The notes under the pieces: generated by a model
Seen by the model: the letters and a program-made list of their open reading frames with translations, nothing else
The model's database searches: none
Told to the model about the DNA's origin: nothing
Part shown: one piece after another, positions 19,740-27,788 of the stretch
Position numbering within the stretch: position 1 is the stretch's first letter
How the letters are laid out: every line of letters starts with the position of its first letter
Translations under genes and position numbers: made by a program
DNA from: Solirubrobacterales bacterium
GTDB taxonomy: Bacteria; Actinomycetota; Thermoleophilia; Solirubrobacterales; Solirubrobacteraceae
NCBI GenBank assembly: GCA_019240305.1
Contig: JAFAYP010000447.1
Location: 1-32,364, forward strand
DNA length: 32,364 nt
Reading direction: 5' to 3'

Positions 19740-20399
19740 TCAGGCCGCGGCGCGCGCCGTCGGAGCGCATTCCATGTCGGTCAGCTCGCGGCGCAGCGCA
19801 AGGCGACCGCGATGGTGAAGGCCGTGCACCGAGGACTCGGTGCGTCCCATCCGATCGGCAATCTCGCCCGGAGTCAGACCGACCAGGTGACGCAGCACGA
19901 CCACGTCGCGCTGATCCTCGGGCAGCGTCTCAAGCGCGACCTCGAGGCCCCAGCGGCACTCGCGGCTGGTCTCATCGGTCTGCCGGGTGGGCTCGAACAC
20001 TTCCTCGCAGGGCACGGCCCGGCGCTGGCGCAGATGGTCGATCGCGATGTTGCGCGCCACCCGGAGGATCCACGCGGTGAACGGGACGCTCCGGGGCTCG
20101 TACTTGTGGATCGCCAACATCAGCTTCATGAACACCTGCTGCGTGACGTCCTCGGCCTCGTGCGGCTCGCGGACGATGCTCAGGACGTAGCCGTAGACGT
20201 TGTCCTTGTAGCGGAGGTACAGAAAGCGAACCGCTTCCATGTCCCCTGACTTCGCCGCCAGTACGGCTCGGTTGATCGCCTCGTCGTGGTTGTTGTGGTC
20301 CACCGTCTTGGCGGCGCGGAATCCAGGCGCCGCGGCGCGCTCGAGATGCGGGTCGGTGCGGACCGGCCCAGCGATGGCAAGCGATGTCTTTTTGTTCAT
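19740..20399 (-). CDS. ECF-type RNA polymerase sigma factor
   Basis: 'AVRFLYLRYKDNVYGYVLSIVREPHEAEDVTQQVFMKLMLAIHKYEPRSVPFTAWILRVARNIAIDHLRQRR', 'LPEDQRDVVVLRHLVGLTPGEIADRMGRTESSVHGLHHRGRLALRRELT'. Start may be 20399 or 20444. Confidence 0.92.
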   Translation of the reverse strand: MNKKTSLAIAGPVRTDPHLERAAAPGFRAAKTVDHNNHDEAINRAVLAAKSGDMEAVRFLYLRYKDNVYGYVLSIVREPHEAEDVTQQVFMKLMLAIHKYEPRSVPFTAWILRVARNIAIDHLRQRRAVPCEEVFEPTRQTDETSRECRWGLEVALETLPEDQRDVVVLRHLVGLTPGEIADRMGRTESSVHGLHHRGRLALRRELTDMECAPTARAAA

Positions 20400-20586
20400 G
20401 TAGATAACAGCCGGACCACAGGTGCACGCTGATTGCGCCCCCATGCACCTGAGTCGGCTGGCCCCCTGTATTGGTTCTCGAAGTCCGTTTCTCGTTAAAT
20501 CCCTGAGCCCGTTTGAACATCCGTCCAGGATGTGCAGGCTTGGCTAAAGCTACTCCTTCCCGCACAGCTCGCACCAGGGATGCTCC

Positions 20587-21162
20587 CTAGCCTTTAGGGT
20601 GGTCCGGGCGAGAAAATCGGCTAGGGTCCCGAGGGTCCAGGCCCGCGCCGTCGCTCTCGCGATCGAGCATCCGAACGACCCGGGCGGGGTTGCCCACGAC
20701 CAGCGCGAAGTCGGGCACGTCCCGGGTCACCACTGCCCCGGCGCCGACCATCGCGCGTTCCCCGACCGTGATCCCGGGCAATAGAACCGCACCCGCGCCG
20801 ATGCTCGCGCCGCGCCGGATCGTGGTCACCTGGCACTCGAAGGCGTGCTTGCTGCGCGGAAAGCGGTCGTTGGTAAAGGTGGCCTGCGGTCCGATGAACA
20901 CGTCGTCCTCCACCCGCAGGCCGTCCCACAGGTACACGCCAGACTTGATCGTCACCCGGTCGCCGACAATCACATCGCCTTCCAGGTAGGTGTGGTCACA
21001 GATGTTGCAGTCCGCGCCGATCCGGGCGCCCGCCATCACGTGGGCGAAGGCCCAGATCCGGGTGCGTGGCCCGATCGACGAGGTCTGGACCAGCGCCCAG
21101 TCATCCACGAAAACGTCCGGCTCGCTTTCAGGTGACATACCGGCGGCCGCCGGTGAGGTCAT
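20587..21162 (-). CDS. Left-handed beta-helix acyltransferase (WbpD-like N-acetyltransferase)
   Basis: 191 aa; 'RTRIWAFAHVMAGARIGADCNICDHTYLEGDVIVGDRVTIKSGVYLWDGLRVEDDVFIGPQATFTNDRFPRSK', '[44 protein letters not shown]'. Confidence 0.93.
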   Translation of the reverse strand: MTSPAAAGMSPESEPDVFVDDWALVQTSSIGPRTRIWAFAHVMAGARIGADCNICDHTYLEGDVIVGDRVTIKSGVYLWDGLRVEDDVFIGPQATFTNDRFPRSKHAFECQVTTIRRGASIGAGAVLLPGITVGERAMVGAGAVVTRDVPDFALVVGNPARVVRMLDRESDGAGLDPRDPSRFSRPDHPKG

Positions 21163-22280
21163 CCCGCCGCGACGAGTTCGCGTCGCTCCGCCAGCTGCCG
21201 GCTGATGTCCGCGTGATCGGCCAGCGACACCTCGCGACCGCCGGCCTGCAGCGACTGATCGGCTGCCTCCACGATCGCCACGACACTGCGGGCAATCGCC
21301 GTGTGGAACTCCATCGGGTCACCGGCCTGGATCGCCTTGACGAAGTCGGCCAGCTCCAGACCCAGCGGCTCGTGCGACTCGATCCGCGGCGAGATCACAT
21401 CGCCGCTGCGATAGGACAGGTGGTACTCGCCAAACGTCTCCGGATCGCGGTACACCACTCCCCGGTCGAACAACCGGACCGGTTCGGGCGCCCCATCGTC
21501 GTAGATCACCATGCTCTCGCTGCCGACCAGCACCGTGCGCCGCAACTTACTCGGCGCCAGCCAGCTCAGCTCGACGTTGACCACGATCCCCGAGGCAAAC
21601 GTCATGGTCACAAACGCCACGTCGGCGATGCCCTTGACAATCGAGTCGCGACCGACCGCCCGCACGCTGGTGGGCAGCTCGCTCAGCCAGTACAGGAGGA
21701 TCGAGAAGTCGTGCGGCCCCAGGTCCCAGATCACGCTCACGTCGCGCTGATGCAGGCCCAGGTTCACCCGGCTCGAGGAGATGAAGAAGATGTCACCGAG
21801 CGTCCCGGCTTCGATCATCCGCTTCACCGCGCGCACAGGCGGGCTGTACAGGAACGTATGACCACACATCAGGATGCGGCCGCGCTCGCGGGCCAGCTGA
21901 GCCAGATCATCGGCCAGCTCGGTCGACTCAGCCAGCGGCTTCTCGACGAACACATGCTTGCCCGCCTCGAGTGCCTGAGCGGCCAGCGCGTAGTGGGTGT
22001 GGACCGGCGTGGCGATGATCACCGCGTCGACCGTCGGATCGCTCAGGACTCGGTCGATCCGGGTCGTGACCCGGGCGGACGGATGGCGGCGCCGGTACTT
22101 CGCGAGTCGTTCGGTATCCAGATCGCAGATCCAGCGCACCTCGGCATCGAGGTTGTCGCCCAGCACGCGCAGGAGGTTGGGTCCCCAGTAGCCGAGGCCG
22201 ACAACCGCGATTCCGACCGGCTGGCCGTCGTTTGCGCCCGTCAGGTCCTCGTGAGTGATTGATAGAGCCGGGTTCAGCAT
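21159..22280 (-). CDS. Gfo/Idh/MocA family oxidoreductase (WbpB-like)
   Basis: Start at MLNPALSITHEDL; 'PVGIAVVGLGYWGPNLLRVLGDN', 'VDAVIIATPVHTHYALAAQALEAGKHVFVEKPLAEST', 'ILMCGHTFLYSPPVRAVKRMIEAGTLGDIFFISSSRVNLG'. Confidence 0.95.
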   Translation of the reverse strand: MLNPALSITHEDLTGANDGQPVGIAVVGLGYWGPNLLRVLGDNLDAEVRWICDLDTERLAKYRRRHPSARVTTRIDRVLSDPTVDAVIIATPVHTHYALAAQALEAGKHVFVEKPLAESTELADDLAQLARERGRILMCGHTFLYSPPVRAVKRMIEAGTLGDIFFISSSRVNLGLHQRDVSVIWDLGPHDFSILLYWLSELPTSVRAVGRDSIVKGIADVAFVTMTFASGIVVNVELSWLAPSKLRRTVLVGSESMVIYDDGAPEPVRLFDRGVVYRDPETFGEYHLSYRSGDVISPRIESHEPLGLELADFVKAIQAGDPMEFHTAIARSVVAIVEAADQSLQAGGREVSLADHADISRQLAERRELVAAG

Positions 22281-23440
22281 CGGGCTTCTCCTGATCGTGC
22301 GCTCGGGGTCCGGACCGCGGCGTGCACCGCATCGGCCACGCGTTCGATCTCGTCTGGACTGAGGTCTGGATGCATCGGAAGCGACAGCTCCTCGGCCGCC
22401 CAGGCCTCGGCATTCGGGACCTCGCCGTGGCGCACCTGGTCCTGGCCCCACGCCGGGTGGCCGTGGACCGCCGGGGTGTAGTGGATGCCGGTTTCGATGC
22501 CGTGTTCCTTCAGCACCGTGGCCACGGCAGCGCGGTCCTCGAACCGCGCCGGGAACAGGTGGTGAACCGACGGGCTCTCGGGCCGCTCCTCGACCAGCCT
22601 GATGGCCGGATCGAGCAGCTGCCGGTAGAGCGCGCCGTGCGCCTGGCGGGCCTCGTTCCACTCGTCGAGGTGAGCCAGCTTGACCCGTAGCAGGGCCGCC
22701 TGCAGACCATCGAGACGCTCGTTGTAGCCCAGCTCGACGTGCTCGCCCTTGGCCCGCTGGCCGAGGTTGCGCAGCCGGCGAAGCCGAGCCGCCAGCATGT
22801 CGTCGTCGGTGCAGATTGCACCGCCGTCGCCCAGCGCGCCGAGGTTCTTGCTCGGGTAGAACGAAAATGCTGCCGCGTTGCCGAGCGAGCCGGCGCGCCG
22901 GCCGTGGTACGTGGCTCCGTGCGCCTGCGCGGCGTCCTCCAGAACGAGCAGACCGCGCGGTCCGGCGAACGCGTGCAGCGCATCCATATCGCAGGCCTGG
23001 CCGTACAGATGGACAGCCAAGATCGCCGCGGTGCGCGGGCCGACGGCGGCCCGGGCGGCGGCGGGATCGATGAGTCCGGTGCCTTCGAGCACGTCGCAGA
23101 GCACCGGCGTAGCGCCGACATGGGCGACCGCCAGCGCCGACGCGATGAACGTGTGCGCCGGCACGATCACCTCGTCGCCGGCTCCGATGCCGTAGGCCTC
23201 GAGCATCAGCGACAGCGCAGCCGTTCCCGATGCGACGCCCACACAGTGGCGCGCATGCGAGTACTCAGCGAATTCCGCTTCGAAGCTCTCCACCTCGATG
23301 CCGAGCGTGTACGCGCTCGATTCGAGCAGACGAGCAAACGCCTCTTTCAGTTCACGCTCAACGCGTGCGTGTTGTAGATCTAGAGCGACGAAGCGCACTT
23401 TGCCCCCGCGCCGCGCCGCCAAAGCTGCTGCTGCCTCCAT
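22274..23440 (-). CDS. DegT/DnrJ/EryC1/StrS family PLP-dependent sugar aminotransferase (WbpE-like)
   Basis: 388 aa; 'FEAEFAEYSHARHCVGVASGTAALSLMLEAYGIGAGDEVIVPAHTFIASALAV', 'LEDAAQAHGATYHGRRAGSLGNAAAFSFYPSKNLGALGDGGAICTDDD', 'LGYNERLDGLQAALLRVKLAHLDEWN'. Confidence 0.95.
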   Translation of the reverse strand: MEAAAALAARRGGKVRFVALDLQHARVERELKEAFARLLESSAYTLGIEVESFEAEFAEYSHARHCVGVASGTAALSLMLEAYGIGAGDEVIVPAHTFIASALAVAHVGATPVLCDVLEGTGLIDPAAARAAVGPRTAAILAVHLYGQACDMDALHAFAGPRGLLVLEDAAQAHGATYHGRRAGSLGNAAAFSFYPSKNLGALGDGGAICTDDDMLAARLRRLRNLGQRAKGEHVELGYNERLDGLQAALLRVKLAHLDEWNEARQAHGALYRQLLDPAIRLVEERPESPSVHHLFPARFEDRAAVATVLKEHGIETGIHYTPAVHGHPAWGQDQVRHGEVPNAEAWAAEELSLPMHPDLSPDEIERVADAVHAAVRTPSARSGEARC

Positions 23441-23521
23441 AACCCGTCCTTGCCGGTTTCCGTGCGAGAAGAGTTATGGCAGCCGAATGCGCAGGACGGA
23501 ATAGGGCGCCGCGCCCATGGA

Positions 23522-23558
23522 TCGTTCAAGCGAATGAACAGCGACGGCGGGTTATACT
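23522..23558 (+). promoter_or_regulatory. Candidate promoter of the response regulator gene: palindrome GTTCAAGCGAATGAAC plus -10-like TATACT
   Basis: Palindrome at 23524-23539, TATACT at 23553-23558, 83 bp before the start codon at 23641; near-identical palindrome occurs at 26914-26929. Confidence 0.5.
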
Positions 23559-23640
23559 TTGGGGCGGGCATTTCGGCGGACTGGCGATGCTTTTGGGCGC
23601 TAAGAAACCGCACGACGGGGCATGAATTGATGAGAACTAA

Positions 23641-24312
23641 ATGACTGAAGCCGCGTGGAACGACGGGTCCATCCGCGTCCTCGTGGTGGATGACCATGAT
23701 CTGTTCAGGGCCGGTCTGGCCTCGCTGCTGAACGCGCAGGCCGGAATCGAGGTGGTGGCTCAGGCCTCGGGCGGCCGCATGGGCGTGCGCCTGGCGAGCG
23801 AGCTGCGCCCGGACGTGGTGCTGATGGACGTGCGGATGCCTGATCTCGAAGGGCCAGACGCAACACGCGAGATCCTCGAGCGAGAGCCGAACGCGCGGAT
23901 TGTGGCGCTCACCGTGGTCTCCGATGAGTCCGATGTGGCGGCCGTGGTCGAGGCCGGCGCCTGCGGGTTCTTGGCCAAGGACACGCCGATCGACGGAGTG
24001 GTCCTGGCTGTCCGGGCCGCTGCCAACGGCGTGGCCTGGCTCTCGCCCCGGGCGGCCGAGGTGGTTCTTGGCCGGGTTCGCCGCGACGGCACCGACCCAG
24101 AGCCGGAGAGCGACCTGGTCGATGAGCTGTCCGCTCGCGAGCTCGAGGTGCTTCGGCTCATCGCCCGCGGCATGGAGAACGCGGAGATCGCGCAGGAGCT
24201 CGGCATCAGCCCCCGCACGGCCAAGAACCACGTGTCGAACATCCTGGCCAAGCTCGGGCTTCCGAGCCGGATCCAGGCCGCGATCTACGCAGTGCGGCGC
24301 GGCCTCAACTGA
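23641..24312 (+). CDS. NarL/FixJ-type response regulator (REC + LuxR HTH), canonical phosphoacceptor
   Basis: 'IRVLVVDDHDLFRAGLASLL', 'RPDVVLMDVRMPDLEG', 'ALTVVSDES', 'GACGFLAKDTP', HTH 'LSARELEVLRLIARGMENAEIAQELGISPRTAKNHVSNILAKLGLPSRIQAAIYAVRRG'. Confidence 0.95.
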   Translation: MTEAAWNDGSIRVLVVDDHDLFRAGLASLLNAQAGIEVVAQASGGRMGVRLASELRPDVVLMDVRMPDLEGPDATREILEREPNARIVALTVVSDESDVAAVVEAGACGFLAKDTPIDGVVLAVRAAANGVAWLSPRAAEVVLGRVRRDGTDPEPESDLVDELSARELEVLRLIARGMENAEIAQELGISPRTAKNHVSNILAKLGLPSRIQAAIYAVRRGLN

Positions 24313-24605
24313 GGCGCTCGCGCCGGCCGGCGGCCCCGGGGGCGCGACCAGCCGGCATCGGCGCCTAGGACGAAGCCGAACGCGAGCATGCTGGTCTCGA
24401 CGTCGTGCAGCGCGCGTAGCTCGGCGATCGCCTCGCGCACCGACGCGATCCCGCGCTGGAGCTGCGCTCGCACAGCGCCGGTTTCGCGGGCGCCGTCGGG
24501 CGCGCCCAGTGCACTCGCCTCGATCGCCATGAGCGCGGCGCAGCTCGCCTCGAGCGCGGACTCCAGGTGTGCGAGAGGTTGCTGGATGTCCCGGCGCTCC
24601 GTCAT
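24285..24605 (-). CDS. Hypothetical helical protein, 3' overlap with convergent response regulator gene
   Basis: Start at MTERRDIQQPLAHLESALEASCAALMAIEAS...; ~106 aa, mostly helical-looking, basic C-terminus; downstream of the LuxR/HK genes on the same strand. Overlaps 24285-24312 of the + strand CDS. Confidence 0.5.
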   Translation of the reverse strand: MTERRDIQQPLAHLESALEASCAALMAIEASALGAPDGARETGAVRAQLQRGIASVREAIAELRALHDVETSMLAFGFVLGADAGWSRPRGRRPARAPQLRPRRTA

Positions 24606-24681
24606 CGTCGAATGGCCCTGAATCCGGTCATGGTGCCGGTTGGCGCGGACGGCCACAATGAGCCGCCAGGTCCCGAGCCGT

Positions 24682-25329
24682 TCAGGTTTTCTGCACGGCG
24701 GAGGGGGTCTTGTGGGCACCGTTCGTGGTGACAGCGCCGGTGAGCGCCGCGCGGTTCTCCACGCCGAGCTTGCGCACCAGCTCGGAGACGTGCCGACGGA
24801 CCGTCACCGGTGCGATCGACAGCCGCTCGGCGATTTCCGCCGTGCGGTGTCCGCGACGAAGCATCCCGAGCACCTGCGACTCGCGCGCGGTCAACGCGTC
24901 CGCTCCACCTCCACCGCCGCGGAGCTCGAGGACGAGCTCGAGCACCATCGACCGTGGCACGACCGCCTCGTTGTTGGCGGCCGCCCTGACCACCCGGTTC
25001 AGGCGCTCGGCGTCGAGGGCACCTGGTACGTACCCGACCGCCCCGGCCCGGACGCACTCCAGCAGGTAGTCGGCGTCATGCGCCTGGGCCAGCACCACGA
25101 CGGCACACCCCGGCGCGGCCCGGCAGACGCCTCTGATCGCCGCCAGCCCGTCGCCGGCGATGTGATCGCCGACCAGGCACAGGTCCGGCTGCTCGCGCAT
25201 CGCGGCACGAATCGCCTGCTCCGCGTCGTCCGCCTCAGCACATACCTCCACGCCGCCATTGAGCGCCAGCCGGATGCCGACTCGGGTGGGCGCTCGATCG
25301 ACGATCAGCAGTCTCAGGCGCTCGCTCAC
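24682..25329 (-). CDS. LuxR-family regulator with degenerate (aspartate-less) receiver domain
   Basis: GTG start; 'SERLRLLIVDRAPTRVGIRLALNGGVEVCAEADDAEQAIRAAMREQPDLCLVGDHIAGDGLAAI...VVVLAQAHDADYLLECVRAGAVGYVPGALDAERL', HTH 'LTARESQVLGMLRRGHRTAEIAERLSIAPVTVRRHVSELVRKLGVENRAALTGAV'. Confidence 0.88.
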   Translation of the reverse strand: MSERLRLLIVDRAPTRVGIRLALNGGVEVCAEADDAEQAIRAAMREQPDLCLVGDHIAGDGLAAIRGVCRAAPGCAVVVLAQAHDADYLLECVRAGAVGYVPGALDAERLNRVVRAAANNEAVVPRSMVLELVLELRGGGGGADALTARESQVLGMLRRGHRTAEIAERLSIAPVTVRRHVSELVRKLGVENRAALTGAVTTNGAHKTPSAVQKT

Positions 25330-26810
25330 GGAAGGACGACCTCGAGCTCGGTCCCACCCCGGCTGGGCTGGTGGACGTTCAGCTCGCCGCCCAGTGCAGC
25401 GGCGCGCTCGCGCATGCTGCGCAGCCCAAATCCCTCCGGTGCGGGAGCCTGCTCGGCGCCCTTGATTCCGCATCCGTCGTCGACCACGCGCAGCGCGATG
25501 CCGCTCTGGCCCTGACGCAGCGAGACGACCACGTTCCGCGCCTTACCGTGGCGGGCGGCGTTGGCGATGGCCTCGCGCACGATCCGAGTGACGTTCTCGC
25601 GCTCGTGCGGCGCCAGGTCACGCTCGAGTTGCGCGTTGACCGAGATCGAGATCTCGAAACGCTCGCCCAGTTCGTGGGCGACGGCCTGGAGAGCCTCGTG
25701 CGCGGTCGCGCCGTCCGGATCGGACAGCTCGGAGATCGTCGAGCGGGAGAGGGCCAGCGCGCGGCGGGCGGCGACCACAAGCGGGTGGTCGTCGCCGAGC
25801 TCCTGGACGAAGCGCGGGCCGTGCGCGGCAATGAAGGCGAGGTCCTGCGCGATCCCGTCGTGCAGATCACGGGCGACTCTCCGGCGTTCGGCCAGCGCGC
25901 TGGCCTTGGACATCCGAGCCTGGACCTGCCGCTCGCGGATCACCGCGGTGAGCAGGATCGCGGCGCTGGCCATGCTGCGCAGAAGCTCGCCGGCGCCGAT
26001 GCGCCCGGCGGCCAGGGAGCCGACCAGCAGGCTGGAGAATCCCGCTCCGGCCAGCAGGATCATGGCTGCCGCCAGCAGTTCGCAGACCCGATCGGGCTCC
26101 GTCCGCCGGCGAGCGGCGAGGAATCCCCAGGCGGCGTAGCCCGGCAGCGCGGTGGCGGCCACCACCAACACGATCAGCAGCGGGTGCCCGAGCGTGAGGT
26201 CGAGGCGCTGGGCGCTGGCGCGAGTGGCGCCGGCCAGGCCGCCGAGCCCGGCGGTGGCGAGCCCGGTCACGACGAGGCCGCCGGCGATCGCCACCGGACG
26301 GCGGCGCCGGGCCAGCAGCCAGTCGGACGGAGCAAACGCGGCCACGGCGAACATCGCGCCGACGGACACCCGGCTCCACAGCTGGGCGGTGGCGAAATAT
26401 GCCCCGTGGCCCAAATCGAACGCGGCGGGTACCGCGGCCACGGCAAAGTTGGTCAGCCCCAGTACGAGCGTCGCCGCAAAGAGCAGGAGATCGCGCAAGC
26501 GCCGGGAGGAGCCGAACTGGGTGCGGAGCAGCCACGCCGCGGCGAAGGTGAACAGCGTGATCATGGTCTCGAGCGCCGCCCTCAAGGTCGGCGCGGTGAC
26601 CGAGGCACTCCGGAGCGCCACCGGCGCGGCCAGCGCGACCGCCCCGAGCCCGACCAAGCTCAGACCCGTCGGCGCGTCGCCGATCCCACTGCGTCGCTTG
26701 TTCAACGACCGACTGCTCGCCGAGACGTTGTCGCTCGCCCCGAGCGCCGCCTCACGTTGCCCCATGGTGCCCCCAGGTTTTTGTGCGAATCCCTCGCCGA
26801 ACCTGATCAT
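25326..26810 (-). CDS. NarL-type sensor histidine kinase (HisKA_3 + HATPase_c) with multiple TM segments
   Basis: 'ERRRVARDLHDGIAQDLAFIAAHGPRFVQ' (H-box), 'ENVTRIVREAIANAARHGKARNVVVSL' (N-box), 'VVDDGCGIKG...GFGLRSMRERAAALGGELNV'; N-terminal hydrophobic region. Confidence 0.93.
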   Translation of the reverse strand: MIRFGEGFAQKPGGTMGQREAALGASDNVSASSRSLNKRRSGIGDAPTGLSLVGLGAVALAAPVALRSASVTAPTLRAALETMITLFTFAAAWLLRTQFGSSRRLRDLLLFAATLVLGLTNFAVAAVPAAFDLGHGAYFATAQLWSRVSVGAMFAVAAFAPSDWLLARRRRPVAIAGGLVVTGLATAGLGGLAGATRASAQRLDLTLGHPLLIVLVVAATALPGYAAWGFLAARRRTEPDRVCELLAAAMILLAGAGFSSLLVGSLAAGRIGAGELLRSMASAAILLTAVIRERQVQARMSKASALAERRRVARDLHDGIAQDLAFIAAHGPRFVQELGDDHPLVVAARRALALSRSTISELSDPDGATAHEALQAVAHELGERFEISISVNAQLERDLAPHERENVTRIVREAIANAARHGKARNVVVSLRQGQSGIALRVVDDGCGIKGAEQAPAPEGFGLRSMRERAAALGGELNVHQPSRGGTELEVVLP

Positions 26811-26901
26811 AGCCGATAAACGAAGCCCGATCCACGAACTTTCTGTCGGCTGGATTAAGCCGCGACTTTAGGGTTTTGGGAAGAATAATCACGGTTGGGG
26901 A

Positions 26902-26953
26902 GCGTTCAATCGTGTTCAGCCGCTTGAACGCGGCAATAGGTCGAAGCGTTCAT
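26902..26953. promoter_or_regulatory. Cluster of GTTCA boxes (candidate operator) in the divergent HK/ECF intergenic region
   Basis: GCGTTCAA 26902-26909; GTTCA 26914-26918; TTGAACGC 26924-26931; GCGTTCAT 26946-26953; embedded palindrome GTTCAGCCGCTTGAAC 26914-26929. Confidence 0.5.
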
Positions 26954-27125
26954 TGACCCTCCCGGGCACGGCGAGGAGACTTCACCGCACAGGAATCCGA
27001 GTTGCGGGGATCGCGCTCGGGGGGCACAAATCAAACGGGGCATCAGGGCGGAGTCGAGGCTGGGCGCGGCGCAGCGTCCGCTGCTCGAACTCCGGCTACC
27101 CATCACCTCCACGGGGGATAGAACG

Positions 27126-27788
27126 TTGATCAAGGAAGCATTGGCCGGGGCACGGGGAACGATTGGATTCAGAACGCGCGCGGCGCTCAACGACGCGCCG
27201 GAGCTGCGCGAGAAGACCCGGCTGGCGGTCGCTCGGGCGAAGGAGGGGGACGACGAGGCACTTCGCTTCCTCTACATCACCTATTCGCAGAACATCTATG
27301 GCTACGTCCGCTCGATCGTGCGCGACGATCACGAGGCCGAGGACGTGACCCAGCACGTGTTCGCCAAGCTCATGACGAGCCTGGTCAAGTACGACGACCG
27401 CGGGGTCCCCTTCTTCGCGTGGCTCATCCGCCTGGCCCGCAATGTGGCCATCGACCACCTGCGGGCCAATCGCTTGACGCCGACCGAGACGGTGCTCGAC
27501 CCGGCCTCGTTCTCGGACGTGGACATCGATCACGGAGAGACGGTGCGGGCCGCCCTCGCCGCGCTCCCGGACGAGCAGCGCGAGGTCGTCGTGCTGCGGC
27601 ACATCGTCGGCCTGACGCCGGCCGAGATCGCCGACCGCATGGGGCGGACTGAGAGCTCGATCCACGGACTGCACCATCGCGGTCGCCGCACGCTCCAGCG
27701 GGAGCTGCAGCTGCTCGACTCGACGCCCTCGACGCGGCCGGTGGCGCCGGCCCGGCGCTCGATTACGCACGAGCTCATCGCCGCGTAG
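27126..27788 (+). CDS. ECF-type RNA polymerase sigma factor (paralog of the 19740..20399 gene)
   Basis: TTG start; 'ALRFLYITYSQNIYGYVRSIVRDDHEAEDVTQHVFAKLMTSLVKYDDRGVPFFAWLIRLARNVAIDHLRANR', 'LPDEQREVVVLRHIVGLTPAEIADRMGRTESSIHGLHHRGRRTLQREL'. Confidence 0.93.
   Translation: MIKEALAGARGTIGFRTRAALNDAPELREKTRLAVARAKEGDDEALRFLYITYSQNIYGYVRSIVRDDHEAEDVTQHVFAKLMTSLVKYDDRGVPFFAWLIRLARNVAIDHLRANRLTPTETVLDPASFSDVDIDHGETVRAALAALPDEQREVVVLRHIVGLTPAEIADRMGRTESSIHGLHHRGRRTLQRELQLLDSTPSTRPVAPARRSITHELIAA

Follow-up and report, generated by a model that had tools for sequence, protein, structure and literature searches.

Two copies of the palindrome GTTCA-N6-TGAAC lie in a 32,364-nucleotide stretch of DNA from a Solirubrobacterales bacterium (contig JAFAYP010000447.1, hereafter the window), and comparison with other genomes of the genus confirms a real, conserved operator-like site tied to a NarL-type/kinase/sigma gene group. 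The group comprises a NarL-type response regulator (RR1), a second NarL-type protein (RR2), a histidine kinase (HK) and an extracytoplasmic function (ECF) sigma factor, ECFa. Sequence comparison establishes the conservation of the palindrome, its position, the orientation of its conserved flanks and its association with polysaccharide loci and RR2-type genes. The explanation we favour, with somewhat better than even confidence, is that the palindrome serves as the operator of a NarL-family surface-polysaccharide regulon and would be bound by RR2, as a homodimer or together with RR1, to activate transcription. A NarL-family regulon is a known kind of system, while the operator sequence is new; a literature search for the motif returned nothing relevant. 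An uncharacterised genus thereby gains a testable regulon with an operator, two candidate regulators and a short list of target promoters, namely those of a nucleotide-sugar operon, the ECF sigma gene, and pel-like and sugar-transferase loci.

Conservation and orientation of the two sites

Both palindromes were reported in an earlier note on this DNA as non-coding and two mismatches apart, and this holds. Positions 23523-23540 (+) read CGTTCAAGCGAATGAACA and positions 26913-26930 (-) read CGTTCAAGCGGCTGAACA, with 2 positions unlike between them. With up to 3 mismatches, CGTTCAAGCGNNTGAACA has 3 matches in the window against 0.23 expected from shuffles. Pattern searches were extended to the whole draft genome (G000; 3.68 Mb, 73% complete), where only sites 1 and 2 match GTTCAAGCGNNTGAAC exactly. 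The looser pattern GTTCAN6TGAAC has 9 exact sites there, 4 of them non-coding (sites 1 and 2 included) and 5 within genes, and a reversed control pattern has 0. An extra half-site, GTTCAA at 26904, was dropped as it is not conserved in relatives.

We located orthologs of RR1, RR2, HK and ECFa in the genus and compared their loci. The exact palindrome of site 1 stands between RR1 and the sugar operon in 6 genomes including G000, and that of site 2 between ECFa and HK or RR2 in 9, again including G000 (Table 1). A tenth genome, G017, has at the place of site 2 a form with a five-base centre (N5), GTTCATCCGGTGAAC. Conservation in orthologous intergenic DNA, which the earlier note had proposed as a check, is thus found for both sites. 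The arms are fixed at 5 bp each and the inner six bases vary among genomes, as expected for the binding site of a dimer.

Which promoter each site serves is a separate matter. The earlier note had assigned site 1 to RR1 and site 2 to the kinase and/or the sigma gene. It left unremarked that the DegT operon (start 23440, -) runs divergently from RR1 and has site 1 in its upstream region too. No palindrome lies upstream of the RR1 orthologs of G017, G011, G025, G002, G013 and G026 (58-70% identity), and RR1 orthologs that lack the sugar operon as a neighbour lack the palindrome as well. DegT copies elsewhere in G007, G005, G011 and G003 have no palindrome either, so the DegT gene alone does not carry it, and site 1 therefore belongs to the RR1/sugar-operon junction, pointing to the sugar operon. 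In G007 this junction lacks the DegT gene, and the same promoter is followed by the dehydrogenase gene instead.

The flanks point the same way in both intergenic regions. Among distant pairs, identity at site 1 is 0.70 on the DegT side and 0.56 on the RR1 side, and at site 2 it is 0.66 on the ECFa side and 0.55 on the HK side; the shuffled expectation is 0.57. Because the conserved flank lies on those sides, the better-supported targets are the nucleotide-sugar operon for site 1, not the RR1 gene, and the ECF sigma gene for site 2, not the kinase. The assignment to the RR1 and kinase promoters in the earlier note is not supported. A palindrome that suggests autoregulation of the regulator next to it can be given a different target in this way, through flank conservation.

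The elements on the conserved sides (Table 1) may be read as sigma70-like promoters; the -35 hexamer would then lie about 30 bp downstream of the palindrome centre, which itself would be near -65. The element TT[CG][AC]C stands at 21-24 bp in 16/26 system sites, as against 0/52 coding controls and 2.5% of non-coding positions picked at random. The p-values of this comparison are descriptive, as some of the system sites are orthologs, hence not independent, and some served to define the element. ECFa promoters have a conserved CAATGGG-like element that stands 4 bp after site 2 (window 26930-26958, +), and CATGGG is similarly placed after site 1. The reading of the two as a second common element was dropped, since most of the remaining sites do not show it. 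On a small contig (G003:C345, L149, 1359), G003 has a near-copy of the ECFa promoter region that has diverged and is a duplicate or contamination.

Table 1. Coordinates of the palindromes, promoter-like elements and genes in the window.
Feature	Coordinates	Strand	Remarks
Palindrome site 1	23524..23539		GTTCA-N6-TGAAC, GTTCAAGCGAATGAAC; divergent region, DegT operon (-) / RR1 (+); conserved in G007, G023, G022, G005, G014
Palindrome site 2	26914..26929		GTTCA-N6-TGAAC, GTTCAGCCGCTTGAAC; divergent region, HK-RR2 (-) / ECFa (+); conserved in G007, G023, G022, G005, G014, G011, G013, G003; N5 form in G017
CCTATTCC element	23498..23505	-	18 bp downstream of site 1, DegT direction; overlaps weak -35-like TTCCGT (23496-23501)
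-10-like CATAAC, DegT operon	23473..23478	-	17 bp from TTCCGT; CATAAC also in G007, G022, G023; CATAAA in G005
TATACT, possible -10 of RR1	23553..23558	+	Closest relatives only
-35-like TTGACC, ECFa	26953..26958	+	23 bp after palindrome; spacing 22-23 bp in nine genomes
-10-like GAGACT, ECFa	26976..26981	+	17 bp spacer; GATACT in several relatives
Hexapeptide sugar acetyltransferase	20587..21162	-	NeuD-like best match, below cut-off
Gfo/Idh/MocA dehydrogenase	21159..22280	-	UDP-GlcNAc 3-dehydrogenase-like; overlaps its neighbours
DegT/PseC-like aminotransferase	22274..23440	-	First gene of nucleotide-sugar operon, facing site 1
RR1, NarL-type response regulator	23641..24312	+	Canonical receiver
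RR2, NarL-type protein	24682..25329	-	Degenerate receiver (phospho-Asp, Thr, Lys lost)
HK, HisKA_3-type histidine kinase	25326..26810	-	Variable membrane part
ECFa, ECF sigma factor	27126..27788	+	Faces site 2

Coding matches and polysaccharide loci

The earlier note held that equal frequency of the motif inside coding sequence would speak against an operator. GTTCAN6TGAAC occurs in 27/28 genomes of the genus and most matches are intragenic where checked, but the count misleads. All 52 coding matches checked (52/52) share one reading phase, TTC ANN NNN NTG AAC, made of common codons, and because of this shared frame the coding matches are a codon artefact, a reading-frame coincidence. Of the 64 exact sites in genomes with RR2 or an RR2 paralog, 22 are non-coding, where 12.8% would be expected (p = 8e-6); four genomes taken as having neither give 0/10. 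That the two window sites are merely similar, functionless palindromes in non-coding DNA is extremely improbable: the wide intragenic occurrence that would favour chance is accounted for by the codon artefact, and the comparative data already contradict chance, with non-coding sites keeping position and orientation across species. Codon-phase effects can swamp palindrome counts of high-GC genomes, and this one can hide true sites in whole-genome counts.

Outside the window, the palindrome recurs beside polysaccharide genes, in many cases followed at about 22 bp by a promoter-like element. The composite palindrome-N18-CCTATTSC has 3 occurrences in G000 with 0-1 mismatch, two of them beyond the window. 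One (G000:C481) separates two divergent NarL-type genes (RR3) at a locus that also has a bacterial sugar transferase; the other (G000:C83) precedes a small coiled-coil gene adjoining a CofD-like gene. Similar composite sites are found at G022:C235, G023:C64 and G025:C183; the G025 site precedes a polysaccharide-deacetylase/glycosyltransferase pair. At all five of these places an element of the CCTATTCC type stands at the same distance from the palindrome (N17 in G022:C235). RR3-type regulators beside the sugar transferase were considered as the binding protein and dropped, since RR3 is absent from several genomes that have the palindrome.

The palindrome is also found at pel-like loci. In G022, G023 and G009 a PelF-family gene and an Agd3-like deacetylase gene have a six-base-centre (N6) palindrome between them, and the coiled-coil gene has an N5 or N6 palindrome upstream; the PelF-family glycosyltransferase of G023 matches NF038011 above cut-off. 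Directly upstream of the RR2-like gene in the pel-like loci of the same three genomes is an N5 palindrome, likewise in G017. The RR1 paralogs of pel loci have just an N5 site with 1 mismatch and lack an exact palindrome. The pel-like loci L311, L312, L313 and L317 contain glmS-like, CofD-like, small coiled-coil, pelF and Agd3-like deacetylase genes together with two NarL-type genes, and several palindromes fall inside about 6 kb.

Candidate regulators and rival explanations

RR1 and RR2 both match PF00072 (receiver) and PF00196 (LuxR-type/GerE DNA-binding) above cut-offs. The phospho-acceptor Asp, Thr/Ser and Lys residues are present in RR1 and lost in RR2 of every ortholog (13 genomes), which marks RR2, by its sequence, as an atypical NarL/FixJ member. 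The recognition-helix core VTVRRH is common to RR2 and its paralogs; RR1 differs here, with T-x-KNHVS. Between RR2 and ECFa (or the palindrome) the kinase is missing in G014, G011, G013 and G025, and the RR2-palindrome pairing is therefore more stable than the kinase. G003 (87% complete) keeps ECFa, the palindrome, HK and RR2, and no RR1 ortholog was found in it.

We favour RR2 or an RR1/RR2 pair because RR2-type genes are the common neighbours of the palindrome over two kinds of locus, because RR1-type genes there have their own exact palindrome only where the sugar operon adjoins, and because of the gene content of G003. We infer the identity of the binding protein, activation over repression and the link to the kinase as follows. 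The palindrome would be bound, about 65 bp upstream of the transcription start, by a NarL-family dimer, most likely of RR2 with itself or with phosphorylatable RR1, which would help RNA polymerase at otherwise weak promoters. In the window it would act on the nucleotide-sugar operon (DegT/Gfo-Idh/acetyltransferase) from site 1 and on the ECF sigma gene from site 2, and elsewhere on pelF-like, sugar-transferase and small coiled-coil genes. The kinase would probably pass its signal through RR1. A narrower proposal, and a rather doubtful one, is that phosphorylatable RR1 and phosphorylation-dead RR2 act as a heterodimer on palindromes with 5- or 6-bp centres to coordinate unlinked polysaccharide clusters with the ECF sigma factor; the timing of matrix production would then rest with the pair and not with one protein by itself.

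Several observations weigh against binding by RR2 as activator. RR1-type genes also occur in both kinds of RR2-type locus, and association cannot separate RR2 from RR1 or from the pair. Centres of 5 bp as well as 6 bp would be unusual for a strict 7-2-7 NarL site; the N6 sites match the NarL-type size of 16 bp, yet conservation covers only 5 bp of each arm, and some N5 sites look functional. A -35 element at the standard distance was not seen at pelF sites (2/3) or at RR2-paralog sites. In G026 and G002, RR1, RR2 and HK are present with no palindrome nearby, the upstream DNA being partly off the contig. The relatives are draft genomes, with genes called by a simple codon-based script.

The earlier note had read the palindrome as the operator of RR1, linking this regulator with its own promoter and with those of the kinase and/or sigma gene. 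A conserved operator-like palindrome is upheld, and its 16 bp fits a NarL-family dimer; RR1 is moreover a canonical NarL-type regulator, and the TATACT box described in that note is indeed present 13 bp after site 1 (G000, G007), with a similar box at 15 bp in G022 and G023. The position is not kept in G005 or G014. The six RR1 orthologs without a palindrome, the RR1-facing flank at shuffled-level identity, the palindrome of G003 and the inexact N5 site of the pel-locus RR1 paralogs make this improbable, and as the palindrome also precedes RR2 paralogs and polysaccharide genes, RR2 or the pair is the better candidate. Crp/Fnr-type dimers also use a 5-N6-5 geometry, and geometry alone does not point uniquely to NarL-family proteins. 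A regulator encoded outside these loci, such as a Crp/Fnr-type dimer or another global factor, could bind the palindrome; G009 and G010 have palindromes at such loci without RR1/RR2 orthologs, only paralogs of about 40% identity. We nevertheless regard this as unlikely, as the palindrome repeatedly adjoins RR2-type genes in two separate kinds of locus, and repeated adjacency of site and regulator gene is the usual signature of a local regulator. The same operator and regulator might instead repress the sugar and sigma genes. Sequence alone holds nothing against repression, and the RR1 side of site 1 in G005 has a TACAAT box at a distance of 4 bp. The -35-like hexamer of the conserved side, however, lies about 30 bp downstream of the site centre, an arrangement typical of upstream activators, and the -35/-10 elements of the promoter at site 1 are weak, which leaves repression with a small share of the probability.

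Related systems and neighbouring genes

The BldM/BldM-WhiI regulon of Streptomyces offers a close comparison. The BldM homodimer binds a 16-bp palindrome, TCACcCgnncGgGTGA, and BldM-WhiI demonstrates that NarL-type pairs exist and use 16-bp sites (PMC4125116). The present system likewise combines an atypical NarL-type regulator and a second NarL-type partner with a 16-bp palindromic operator and a link to an ECF sigma factor. It differs in the operator, GTTCA-N6-TGAAC rather than TCACcCgnncGgGTGA, and in its polysaccharide targets, N5 variants, canonical RR1 receiver and kinase encoded alongside; BldM and WhiI act as a heterodimer, whereas RR1 and RR2 are known here as gene neighbours. The best NCBIfam match of ECFa is the BldN family, far below its cut-off.

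LuxR/NarL-type proteins are tied to exopolysaccharide genes here as in VpsT/CsgD-type biofilm regulators. The cyclic di-GMP (c-di-GMP) motif of VpsT contains a tryptophan and follows the receiver. RR2 has no tryptophan in its translation, so it cannot carry this motif. VpsT itself acts through binding of c-di-GMP (PMC3359988). NarL, VraR, DevR and DesR are the closest solved relatives (structures) of RR1 and RR2. The 7-2-7 site of NarL is likewise 16 bp; unlike these four, the present system has a different half-site sequence and an RR2 without phosphorylation residues. Gram-positive pel gene clusters (PMC7112168) also place a PelF-family glycosyltransferase near an Agd3-like deacetylase; the arrangement described here is in the relatives G022, G023 and G009, not in the window, and has NarL-type regulator genes and the palindrome alongside.

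The DegT, Gfo/Idh/MocA and hexapeptide genes are probably one operon, because the dehydrogenase gene overlaps its neighbours. A contig search with the kinase as query returned only a distant Treponema match. A second ECF sigma gene (ECFb; 19740-20444, -), with no palindrome near it, adjoins the sugar operon and a second DegT-type aminotransferase gene and is about 55% identical to ECFa.

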